From a virus, in the IMG/VR virus record IMGVR_UViG_3300025083_000237, positions 1-23,462 of that record: a DNA stretch of 23,462 nt. One strand, 5' to 3'. The notes under the pieces are model-generated. The model made no database searches. It saw only the letters and a list, made by a program, of their open reading frames with translations, and was not told the origin of the DNA. The position numbers were made by a program, and so were the translations under genes. Below, piece after piece: positions 1-6,000 of this stretch (within the stretch, counting starts at the first letter, position 1; each line of letters starts with the position of its first letter).

Positions 1-3000
1 CTCCTTGTTGATCTATAGAATTACTATCATCTCTTGAAGAAATAGTATATGGGTAATCTATAGTAGATGCTGCTGATAGCTGTTGGCTAATTTCTAATAG
101 AGAAGTAGGATTCGTAGTCCCAATCCCTACTTTTCCATCTCCTGTAATTCTAAGTGCTTCTAGTGGGGTTCCTGCGGTTTTAACCCTAAATATAGTATCT
201 CCTTGAGCAGCGTTAAATCTATTATCAATATAAGAATCACCTGATGAAGCATTATGCCATAAATCTAATCCCGAAGAATTATCTGAGCTTCTAAGTAAAA
301 CAGCAGTATCACCTGTATTTCCACTTACTCCTGTTAATTGTAAAACTTTACTAGCAGCTTCAGAGTCTGTAGGTAGAGTAGCTCCCGGACTAGTCGTACC
401 GATACCTACGTTGCCGGTCGGTAGTAATTTTATATCCTTATTAGTAGAGGTTGTAGATAAAGTCAATCCTTCTCTTCCAATAATACTGTACCCATTGGAA
501 GCGTATGAATGTATTTTTACTCCTTCGTAGTATGTTGTTGCAGTTCCGTCATAAATAGTTGCTATACCGTCGCTAATGTGTAGTTTAGTCCCTGGATTAG
601 TAGTTCCTATACCTACATTACCGTTTTTAATGTAGTGGGTGGTTGCTGTATCGTAAACAGAAACATCAGATAAATTTTTAACTTCAAATTTATCTATTTT
701 CCAAGTATTTGTTGCATCTAAAGTACCTCCAAATAAATCACCAAGAGCCATACCAACTTTGTGATATGTTCCTCCATCTCCATCATTAAAGTCTGTTGTT
801 ACTTCGTAACTACCTCTAAAGGCTGCATATCCGGTAGGGTCAATATCCCAGACCATTAATTTACCATCTATATACCTCAACTTCAAACCTGATGCCAGAT
901 TATCGGTTGTTTGATTCATAACACCGTTTCCGAAGTTATTTTGTATATTAACAATAGAACCTCCTTCTACTCTTATTAATCTACAGTAAGTACCGTAAGA
1001 AGCAGACCACTGTAGAGCATAATAGTTATTAGCATCTTTATATTTTATAATTATAGAGAACGTATCATCACCACTATCTCTTCTTTGGAAATCAACTTTA
1101 ACTTCGTAATTTACACTAGAAGGAGTTGTATCCGCTAGATACATTATACCATCGTCACTATCAGTAGCATCTAGCTGTGCTACTCCTGTGCCTCCTATTA
1201 CATTCCAGGTATTAGTATTTCCGTCATCAAATACTTTAGTCCATCCTGCGCCTGTATCTGGAGTGTGAGATTCTAATGCTGTAGTTGAAGATTCTGTAAA
1301 ATTGTCTAAAAATACTGTTGTTCCTCCTAAATCAAATAGCTCTAAATCCCCTTTACCCTCTACTTGTAGAGTTCTACCTACATTTAGTGAACCACTGTGA
1401 TCAAATGTTTGAGCTAATGATTTTATCTTAACTATACCGTTATGAAAATTCTCTACTCCATCATCATTTCTAACAAGTCCTATATTTATCCTGGTTGTTG
1501 CACCATTTCTAGGTCTCTGCAGGTTGAAGTTATGTTCTAAATTATTTTGAAGAGATTGAGATACCGAATTTTGTCCCCAAAATATATTAGTTTGTACGTC
1601 AATTTTACTATCACCAGTTGTTGTTCCGTCTATTATGTTTACGTCTCCTCCATTTCCGTGTGTTAAGCTAGTAGTAGAGTATGTAGTAAGTGGACCGTAG
1701 TAGTATCCTGCAGATGCATAAATGTCTTGAAAAGAAGAAATACCGTTAAATACAGAGTCTCCTTTTACATTAAGTCCGTTTTTTATACCTACACTACTAT
1801 CGTTAGTACTGTTAAAAGTTACTCCTCCTATATTATAAGTTCTAACATAATCGCCGCTGGTTGAACATGTAAATGCTTTTCCTTCTGCTTCATTTACGTA
1901 TAGTCCATCTACTGTTCCCTGGTAAGGTGATGTTCTAGCTGCTTTGCTGCCATATGTTGCAGTAGTAATATCCCATGCTGTAGATAGGTTAAGTTGAAGG
2001 ATAGTATCGTAGCCATTATCTATTAACCATATTTTATATCCATCTTCACTAAAAAATAGATCTTCAGCAGAACCAATATCGGCTAAGTTATGTTCACTTG
2101 TAGGTTGAAGTTTTATTAATGTAAAAAAGTTCAGTAAAGAAAAACTATTACCAAGACTTAGTGTTGATACATCCCAGGCAGTAGATAATGTGTACTCCTG
2201 TATTGAATCTTCTCCTGAACCTACTACCCAAAATCGTGTTCCGTCTGGTTTAAAATGAATTCCGTTAGGATTAGTAAAAGTACCACCGCTATCTGTTAAG
2301 GTTTCTTCTCTAGTGTATGTTGCTGTAGAAATATCCCAAGCTACACTCATAGTCCATTGTATCACTTGATCTCGATCATGTCCTACTATGTATACTTCTA
2401 ACCCGTTTGGTGAAATAAACATACCGTAGGGATTTGCTTCAGATGAAGGACTGCTCTGTAATCCTGTAAGCTGATCTGTATATGTAGCGGTAGTTACATC
2501 CCATGCTGTTGAAAGTGCGTATTCATCTATATCGTCTCCTGATCTCCCTAAAATATACATTTTAGTTCCGTCTGGTTTAAAGAATAGAGCTTCTGGGTTT
2601 GTATCTTCTCCGCCGGTATAAACTTGATTTATGTTTAGATGCCAGGTAGATATGTCGTTTGAATCGTATTCTAGACTACTTCCGCTGATAAAGTCGAGAG
2701 AACCTGTAAGTTTTAAATTGCCGCTAATATTTACTTCACCTTCTGTATTTAGCGAACCTGTAAAACTATGTATATCATCAGAAGTATCTCCAAATTTAGT
2801 TGAACCTGATTCATACATTATAGATGCAGAAACGAATTCTGTGTGAAATTCCTGTGCTGTTACTTTACCTGTAACTGTTACATCTCCTGCAAAAGTTGCA
2901 TTTTGTGATGCATCTAGATGTAATGCTCTAGTACCACCTGACCATAAGTTTGTGTCGTGGCTATTATAGATATTAAAAGACCTTACCGCTCCTCCTGTTT

Positions 3001-6000
3001 GAGACCTTGCAGAACTATTTCTCCAAATTTCAGCAAAATTGCTTTCATCATTTTTCCATTTTCTAGAAACATAAGCACCACTACCTGCATTAGAATTTGT
3101 TTGAACATTAAAACCGCCGCTATTAACGTTGGTATCAAAAGCTGCTGCACCATTTATATCTAAACTAGTTCCTTCTAATTCAGTACCTGTTATTTTACCA
3201 GTAGATGTTATAGCACCAGAACCAATTGTCCCTGCAAAAGTTGCATTTTGTGATGAATCTAGTTTTAATACTTCAGTAATAGTACCACTACCATCATCAA
3301 CATTAAATAACATATCAGGTGTAGAATCATTGTTTATAGTTATGCTAGCTATATCAATACCACTAGAATTAAATATATTTATTAATTTAGTTGTAGTATC
3401 ATTACTATTACACTGTACACCAAAAACATCTTCACCTGCATCTGCTTGTACACTTAATTTAGCAGTGCCTAAAACACTGGTTCTATTAATTATTACATCA
3501 CCTGCAAAAGTTGCGTTATTTGTTGAACTATCTAAAGTTAATATATCTGAAAATCCACCGTTCCACTGAGTACCTATAACTATATCACCAGTAATGTCTG
3601 CTTGTGCTGAGTAGTTACTACCACCTGAGTACATTTCAACTCTACCTTTCTGGTTACTTGTTCCACCACCTCTAGTACCACCTGATAAACTTATATAAGC
3701 ACCATCAGAATAAACGGTGCCACCTCCTAATCTTAAATCGTAACCAGTATTATCTCTAAATATACCTCTAGTACCAGCGGTGTTGTCTATTACAATTGTG
3801 CTGCCATATAAAACTCCGGATATATCAGCGTTACCATTTATATCTAGACTAGTACCTTCTATTTCACCACCAGATATTTTACCACTAGTAGTAACATTAC
3901 CTGCAAAAGTAGCATTATTTCCAGAAATAGCAATAGGTGCATCTGTAAGCGTATCGCTGTCTGACCACATTACAACATCATTGGCAGTACCAGAACCATC
4001 AACCGTACCGCTACCGCCTCCATCTGTTTCTATAATATTACCGGATGAATCTACTGCTAAAGTTTTAACTGCTGTTCCTGTAAAGTTACCTGAACCGTAT
4101 TGATGTAGTATGGCTTGTCCAGTATCATTTAAGGTAAAATGTTGAGTAGCTGAACCTGCTTCAGTAGTTCTATATGCCCACTGTAATTTACCGTTAGAAT
4201 CTATTTCTTGAGTCCATATCTTAGTACCTGATCTAGATTGTCTTATCCCGGAGGAAGCTCCGGTAGAGCCGCTAATATGTAATTTAGTGCTTGGACTAGT
4301 CGTACCGATACCTACATCACCTGTTGAAGTGATACGCATGCGTTCAGAGTTAGTCGTGTAAAAACCTAACGTACCTGTAGATGGTAAATCTAATCCAACT
4401 CCATCTGCTCCAACAGAAAGTTTTAGTAGAGGATTAGTCGTTCCTATACCTACGTTACCTGATTGGTTTACAGTTACAAGTGTTGATCCATTAGATTGTA
4501 TCTTAAATGTTCCGTCACTATTAGTAGAAATGTTTGGATATGTACTCTTATAGTCTAAAGCTCCAAATTCAAAAACTCCAGAACCTTGAGATAGAATTCT
4601 ATTTCCATTTATTCTGTATCCATTTGATGTTCCAAATGGTATATTAACATCGCCGTCTACATCTAGTTTATGTCCAGGATTAGTAGTACCAATACCCACA
4701 TCGCCTGAGCCTGATATGAATATTCTAGCAATATCAGCAGTCTTAATGTGAAAACTTCCTGTATTGTTAGTAGTGGCTGTCTTTCCTATAAGAGGGTCTC
4801 GTACTGCTTTATTAGCTCCGCTATTTGATGGGTCGCGATCACCAAAAGATAATTGATGACTATTACCGAAGTATGCTTTTACTCCTCCTCCCCATACATA
4901 AGCTAATTCATTATTATCAAATTTTAGACTGGATGCATAAGTGTTGCTGGTAGGGAATGCTTTATATTCATGAGAACTAGAACCACTCAGTATTATACTG
5001 CCCTGGTGTATATGTAGTTTTTCTGCTGGGCTTGTAGTACCTATACCTACATTTCCTGAAGCTGATATAAATAACCTAGTAGTATTAACTGTCTGAAGTG
5101 ATAAATTTCCTGTGGATGCTTGGTTAGTTATAGTCATTCCTGCTGATGCAGATGTAGTCCACTTATCGTATTGAATATAATTTCCGTCATGACCGTCCCA
5201 TAAGTATACTCTACCGGAATTTTTAACTCCGATATCTCCATTCACTGTTAACTCTCTAGTTGGTGAAGTGTCTCCAATACCTACCTTTCCAGTCCCATCA
5301 GGATCTATTAATAAATCTTCATTAGTACCGTATGTTGTAATATGTGCTCCACCATTATTGTGCCCGAGTCTAAGCACCGGTGTAGTTTGTGTAGATGATG
5401 TATTCCTAATTGTATTTGCAAAGACTGAACCGTTAACTTGATGTGTTACTTGGGAATACGGACCTATATCATAAAAATAGGTACTAGATCTTTCAGCTCT
5501 AAATAGTTTAGTACTATTATCTTCTGCATTATTTACTATAATAGATCCTGTAAAGTTATGTACATCATCAGAGGAATCTCCAAACTTAGTTGAACCTGAT
5601 TCGTACATGATAGACGCACTAACAAATTCTGTATGGAATTCCTGTGCTGTTACTTTACCTGTAACTGTTACATCTCCTGCAAAAGTTGCATTTTGATTGT
5701 TCTTTAAAGTAAAAGAAGTCTCATACGCGCTGCCGTTCCAAGTATATAATTCAAACCCTCCATCTGTGGAGTTTGTACCACCATAAAGTTTTAGTTCACC
5801 GTTGCTCTCTTTCGTTATAGCCAACTGACCACCAAATCTTATGTTATTACCTAAGTCTAGTTTTAAATCACCGCCGATATTTACAGCACTGGTTACTGTT
5901 AAATCTCCAGTTAAGGTATCTGTTGTGTTAAGTAAGTACCCACTTAAATCATTAGACACTAAATATGTACTTGAATCTACAGAACCATCTGCTTTGAGGA

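Follow-up and report, generated by a model that had tools for sequence, protein, structure and literature searches.

A predicted five-bladed beta-propeller module in the long tail fibre of a marine phage, with relatives in phages and bacteria

The endosialidases of the phages K1F and phi92 are six-bladed and carry an S74-type chaperone at their C-terminal end. According to PMC4901313, they form trimeric propellers on a stem with a catalytic sialidase. The same paper describes Gp45 of phage phi11 as a homotrimer with one five-bladed propeller in the middle of each chain, in which an N-terminal strand closes blade 5 and a cavity could hold GlcNAc; its best DALI match is given as the glutamine cyclotransferase 3NOL. 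Furthermore, beta-propeller lectins are reported from the fibres of extracellular contractile injection systems in PMC12923769, and a different propeller, located in the tail tube, is described in PMC10386132.

Here, we analyzed a propeller encoded in the window, i.e. the complete 23,462-base virus record IMGVR_UViG_3300025083_000237. It lies in the last ORF, which matches tail fiber families (phrog_9942, 3.1e-37; phrog_18345, 4.5e-26) and is incomplete, with its C-terminal end outside the contig. Apart from the propeller, this ORF represents a repetitive fibre shaft, including a 43-nt repeat whose 11 copies code for a VGIGTTSP-type stretch. Ten other minus-strand ORFs were scanned, of which six matched terminase, portal, head maturation protease, major head protein, PhoH and head-tail adaptor, and four gave no match. 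The gene order is T4-like, and the source is probably a T4-like marine phage carrying the propeller in its long tail fibre. In addition, a 152-nt module was found twice in the fibre gene (Table 1), which suggests a module duplication inside the fibre.

A sequence-only reading of this DNA had proposed four tandem blades at positions 1855-2640, formed by near-identical WD(V/I)(S/T)TATY strands with preceding PDGT/PNGL-type turns. The WD repeats on the minus strand at this location are genuine, and three of the four strings fit the motif (WDVTTATY, WDISTATY and WDITTATY), whereas the third in order is a degenerate WDVSTLSL; the turns are PDGT in two cases, PNGL in one and EDGY in the fourth. The WD motif itself does not form a strand, as the model places it in the C-D turn, and the number of blades had to be raised from four to five, since a degenerate fifth blade and the closing strand had been missed. 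Repeats 1 to 4 scored 45-83 bits (Table 1) with a blade profile that was derived from viral relatives with the window excluded. Shuffling these 310 residues 1000 times gave no more than 5.2 bits, which rules out a chance repeat. The fifth blade is almost without repeat signal, and the profile found no match in the rest of the fibre ORF.

The best Pfam match of the excised domain was SGL (SMP-30/gluconolactonase, PF08450) with 32.9 bits at a cut-off of 26.3, the best stretch covering only profile positions 132-215 of 246, and 42 of the 47 aligned family members matched SGL at E 1e-3. The full-length ORF returned no Pfam family. Of the WD40, NHL and SMP-30-like families proposed earlier for a profile search, the last was recovered for the excised domain. 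Generic WD40 and NHL families were absent from the three Pfam matches of the window domain; some relatives matched single WD40-type models, relatives also matched Lactonase, and the window domain alone had no match among the PHROGs. By sequence, the closest solved relative is PDB 1l0q (E 7.8e-9 for the excised domain alone, 2e-18 with the family profile), a YVTN propeller from the surface-layer protein of an archaeon. Its seven blades are ~42 aa long, in contrast to the five blades and a commonest spacing of 51 aa in the window family. Likewise, SGL proteins are six-bladed and metal-dependent, which differs from the five blades of the window model.

The structure was predicted with AlphaFold from an alignment of 47 sequences, comprising the window and 46 of the 91 sequences that remained from 133 propeller segments after removal of near-copies. 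The resulting model (mean pLDDT 82.2, core pLDDT ~95, pTM 0.82) shows one strand followed by four blades of four strands each and a last blade of three strands. As read from this strand order, the N-terminal strand supplies the missing strand of blade 5, and the relatives in the alignment begin with an equivalent first strand. Residues ~1469-1738 are predicted to be a five-bladed beta-propeller that forms a closed disc. A four-bladed or open repeat is ruled out by the strand count and by the blade numbers in relatives. The long loop between blades 3 and 4 is an insertion shared with close relatives, among them L003 and L005. The earlier proposal of a propeller inside a fibre-type protein is therefore supported by the SGL and 1l0q matches as well as by the model, and a confident model of another fold, such as the beta-helix named at that time as the refuting outcome, did not appear in the monomer prediction.

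Table 1. Features of the fibre ORF and its propeller; positions refer to the window, residues to the fibre ORF.
Feature	Position	Strand	Basis
Tail-fibre-type ORF, 2348 aa, 3' open at contig end	2..7045	-	ORF calling, PHROG tail fiber matches
152-nt fibre module (repeat family D3), directly preceding the propeller in coding direction	2754..2905	-	second copy of 5544-5695, 90% identity
Propeller domain overall	~1832 to 2641	-	AlphaFold model
Entry strand to shaft connection, residues 1456-1460	2666..2680	-	model strand 27-31
Closing strand (outermost in blade 5), residues 1469-1476	2618..2641	-	model strand 40-47, alignment
Blade 1, residues 1484-1526	2468..2596	-	model strands 55-97; 82.7 bits
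Blade 2, residues 1539-1582	2300..2431	-	model strands 110-153; 53.1 bits
Blade 3, residues 1593-1636	2138..2269	-	model strands 164-207; 68.8 bits
Long blade 3-4 loop, residues 1637-1659	2069..2137	-	alignment; two short strands, 212-214 and 224-226
Blade 4, residues 1660-1704	1934..2068	-	model strands 231-275; 45.5 bits
Blade 5, residues 1712-1738, three strands, sequence-degenerate	1832..1912	-	model strands 283-309; -0.2 bits
Exit strand to shaft connection, residues 1742-1746	1808..1822	-	model strand 313-317
Linking region of cassette, residues 1747-1893, pLDDT <50	1367..1807	-	conserved with L003-L006 and L085
Lectin-like jelly-roll domain, residues ~1912-2125	671..1312	-	structure matches of modest-confidence model

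The best structure matches (VIA) of the propeller model were the C-terminal domain of YjiK (3qqz, Z 22.6) and the bacterial glutaminyl cyclases 3mbr, 3nol and 3nok (Z 20.2-22.2), which also have five blades; these matches extend over 219-233 residues at 8-10% identity, and the proteins differ from the window fibre in context. NHL structures reached Z values of about 18-19. Plain Foldseek against the PDB gave 1185 matches at E 0.001 with loose superpositions; the best 50 of these 1185 had TM values of 0.38-0.45 by query length and an rmsd of 6-12, with other blade numbers on top. Against viral models, the best matches were uncharacterised phage proteins with TM values up to 0.67, together with one named baseplate wedge subunit (rmsd 1.6). 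3nol (Z 21.6) is shared with phi11 Gp45 as described in PMC4901313, representing a likeness between the two propellers. Unlike the window fibre, which is >2348 aa long and carries its propeller in the shaft, phi11 Gp45 is a receptor-binding protein of smaller size, has a stem that is alpha-helical and comes from a siphophage of a Gram-positive host. The phi11 chain was absent from the 10 PDB sequences found by the propeller profile at E 0.01; single WD40 proteins are among the PDB matches listed, and no conclusion can be drawn from the absence of phi11 Gp45 and of generic WD40 proteins among those listed. Judged by description in PMC12923769 and not by sequence, the fibres of contractile injection systems resemble the window fibre in combining propellers with the fibre shafts of tail-derived particles, but differ in their collagen-like shafts with TNFR-like domains.

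As a general trend, blade numbers in relatives are multiples of five. Among 59 complete, non-identical viral ORFs, in which blade matches had to cover profile positions 12 to 24, 54 had exactly 5 (16 ORFs), 10 (34 ORFs) or 15 (4 ORFs) detected blades. The five exceptions are L003, L005, L006 and a single ORF each from L019 and L081. In the first three, which are close relatives of the window, four blades were detected and the fifth was aligned and weak, and L019_7144 has five blade matches, three of which pass the position filter. After removal of near-copies, 36 of 40 complete viral ORFs had 5, 10, 15 or 20 blades. Cellular blade runs were counted with a second profile; 103 out of 125 runs comprised exactly five blades, six had ten and 16 had other lengths. 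Correspondingly, 5, 10, 15 or 20 blades were counted in 45 of 54 complete cellular ORFs (38/46 without near-copies). The loci were found by likeness to a five-bladed query, which does not impose multiples of five.

Besides the propeller, the same fibre carries a second globular domain, a galectin-like or thrombospondin-C-like jelly roll (Table 1). A second model, comprising the linking region and this lectin-like domain, had a mean pLDDT of 43.4 with residues 1-225 below 50, and its later part alone was used. This modest-confidence model matched galectins (Z 13-14) and the C-terminal region of thrombospondin-1 (Z 13.2). The TSP_C family scored 15.1 bits on the lectin-like region, under its cut-off of 25.6.

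Insertion of a related propeller as an independent module was observed in the Synechococcus phage S-SKS1, where ~260 residues replace a short loop of P-SSM2 gp7, S-SRM01 and S-T4. The respective un-annotated ORF (1571 aa, L082:4776-9491) is the second ORF after gp6 and codes for a gp7-like baseplate-wedge protein. In P-SSM2, gp7 is one long gene; in S-SKS1, the region is spread over several ORFs. From these sequence comparisons, the propeller appears to behave as a mobile insert, the clean insertion being that of S-SKS1 only, as the search recovered no fibre that differs from the window fibre by the propeller alone. In the model, the entry and exit strands adjoin at blade 5, so that the module can be looped out of its host protein. 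In a search for an empty site, the window region following the propeller, used as a lone query, had no confirmed relative, and the alignment of the lectin-like region retrieved five loci, of which three lie on the L004-L006 contigs. In L004, L005 and L085, the propeller begins near the fibre N-terminus and is followed by the linking region and the lectin-like domain as in the window. The window fibre showed 58% identity to L004 over residues 1453-2169, 57% to L005 over residues 1461-2164 and 44% to L006 over residues 1441-2157. All window frames of at least 80 aa were compared at E 1e-3 with the loci of L004 and L005, with no match except for the fibre and one chance antisense frame. Since these loci match the window in the fibre only, apart from that frame, the cassette seems to travel between fibres. 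In L003 (7893-9521), the fibre is found in two frames with the break within the cassette.

Peptidase_S74 acts as a chaperone of trimeric phage fibres, and the relative L005, which is complete, ends in this domain (2.4e-14). Together with phi11 Gp45, this makes it likely, by analogy, that the window fibre is a trimer with one propeller per chain and three propellers in total. The sequence-only reading had suggested three protruding propellers and had found it structurally interesting how a monomeric disc is inserted in a trimeric shaft; there are precedents for this, as PMC4901313 describes solved trimeric phage proteins with one propeller per chain. According to the proposed arrangement, the chain would enter by the strand completing blade 5, pass through blades 1 to 5 and exit beside its entry point. 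The shaft would thereby stay unopened with the disc hanging by one edge, and a trimer would present three discs around the shaft.

To describe the spread of the module, we considered both viral and cellular relatives. A first scan yielded at least 595 viral relatives, of which 80 were analyzed. Named phages are represented by 18 records, seven of which cover 80% of the query in one place; where given, their hosts are Synechococcus, Rhodobacteraceae, Lentibacter and Maribacter, with weak and partial matches in the case of Maribacter. Where relatives had PHROG matches, these were mainly to small families without assigned function and covered parts of the repeat. The module is very common in marine phage virions, where it has largely been unannotated and can now be named. 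In the Lentibacter phage vB_LenP_ICBM2 (L084:2875-6879), the propeller ORF is located among tail genes alternating with small annotated tail assembly chaperones. On the cellular side, 156 of 251 stretches were confirmed and 77 loci kept, and the titles include many Pelagibacteraceae, Bacteroidetes and candidate phyla. The domain scan covered 42 of the 54 complete cellular ORFs (four or more blades, length up to 1900 aa, near-copies kept in) and revealed an autotransporter barrel in 16, a Por_Secre_tail signal in three and a CHU_C signal in one of them. Autotransporters with a five-bladed propeller are found, for example, at L133:5854-8013 and L130:5872-8658, and proteins bearing the barrel include one from Pelagibacteraceae and one from SUP05.

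With regard to function, the turns of the blades differ in their conservation. Across 403 blades, the mean entropy was 1.63 bits for the B-C and inter-blade turns, versus 0.61 bits for the A-B and C-D turns (Mann-Whitney p 0.0018), and in 69 blades under 70% identity it was 2.05 versus 0.86 bits (Mann-Whitney p 0.0004), with turn sets that were picked after the entropies had been seen. Positions 5, 19, 27, 43 and 45 are among the most variable, yet are located in strands outside both turn sets. We take the two sets to represent the outer and the attached face, following the usual propeller convention and not coordinates. Under this assumption, the conserved turns (PDGTK, STAWDVST) would lie on the chain-attachment side, and the variable B-C and inter-blade turns would point away from it. 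The variable face could then bind a host-surface glycan or polymer, with low affinity at each site but tightly overall owing to the number of copies, and the galectin-like domain that follows in the fibre would contribute to this binding. Based on the variable turns, the lectin-like neighbour and the cavity of phi11 Gp45 (PMC4901313), we infer glycan binding as the most likely role of the propeller, with a presumed part in adsorption. The turn variation may instead reflect slack constraint, and two observations count against an adhesin, namely that the best fold matches (YjiK domain, cyclases) are non-adhesins and that the propeller is positioned mid-fibre and not at the tip. Altogether, we consider it probable that a closed five-bladed disc is looped out of each fibre chain and serves as a glycan-binding adhesin module.

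One alternative explanation could be an enzyme on the fibre, such as a lactonase, gluconolactonase, glutaminyl cyclase or glycoside hydrolase, which modifies or cuts the host surface. The profile matches to SGL and, in relatives, to Lactonase are in agreement with this, as are the glutaminyl cyclases among the best structural matches and the trimeric phage endosialidases, which PMC4901313 presents as enzymes with propellers on a stem. However, the strongly conserved residues recur in every blade of the 403-blade profile, in structural-looking turns and strands, and relatives with 10 or 15 blades repeat one and the same unit; both points weigh slightly against an enzyme, which we regard as unlikely. 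No sialidase family was found for the window domain, nor among 25 of the 31 families listed for relatives.

A passive spacer, or an element for folding or assembly with no binding role, would suit the mid-shaft position and the location of the S-SKS1 relative in a baseplate-wedge protein instead of a fibre. At that wedge site, however, three related phages lack the propeller, which is thus dispensable for assembly there. The greater variability of one turn set and the many cellular relatives that look like surface or secreted proteins, with the autotransporter barrel in over a third of those scanned, also speak against a spacer, making this explanation very unlikely. Finally, the repetitive shaft in the remaining ORF might suggest an elongated beta-solenoid or beta-helix continuous with it and without a disc, but this is ruled out by the confident closed model and deserves practically no credence given the sequence matches to solved propellers and blade numbers mostly in multiples of five, which an open solenoid would not need.

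With a blade number that is largely constant, a clean site of insertion in S-SKS1 and one face that varies more than the other, the module offers a tractable model of how a phage could gain a binding domain while its tail architecture stays undisturbed. One propeller per chain in trimeric phage proteins is known already (phi11 Gp45, PMC4901313), and the most interesting lead is the shared use by bacteria and phages. It is possible, if doubtful, that one five-bladed propeller family constitutes a shared surface-recognition cartridge of marine microbes, displayed by free-living bacteria on autotransporters or type IX secreted proteins and by phages on fibres, a baseplate protein and small tail proteins, either as one unit or in tandem arrays of 5, 10 or 15 blades. 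The presence of the same propeller on bacterial autotransporters raises the question of an adhesin common to phage and host. Were bacteria and phages to bind one class of environmental polymer with it, the phages would accumulate at the attachment sites of their hosts, or recognise hosts by the ligand of the host adhesin. A limited literature search returned nothing on the motif strings, on SAR11/Pelagibacter autotransporters with a propeller or on five-bladed propellers of marine phages.

In a quick tree of 128 propellers, 78 of them cellular, the window and five close relatives form one group (SH-aLRT 100). The labels phage and cell require nine changes in this tree, in which 51 of 125 inner branches have a support below 80, and the tree gives no direction of transfer between phages and cells. 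Several cellular rows among the phages come from metagenome bins, which may contain phage DNA. The Pelagibacteraceae autotransporter copy of L133 is not placed beside the window family. Besides that, some very long cellular ORFs (L152, L094 and L102) contain four to seven separate five-bladed runs; L152, which is open at both ends, has 35 blades arranged as seven runs of five with regular spacing.
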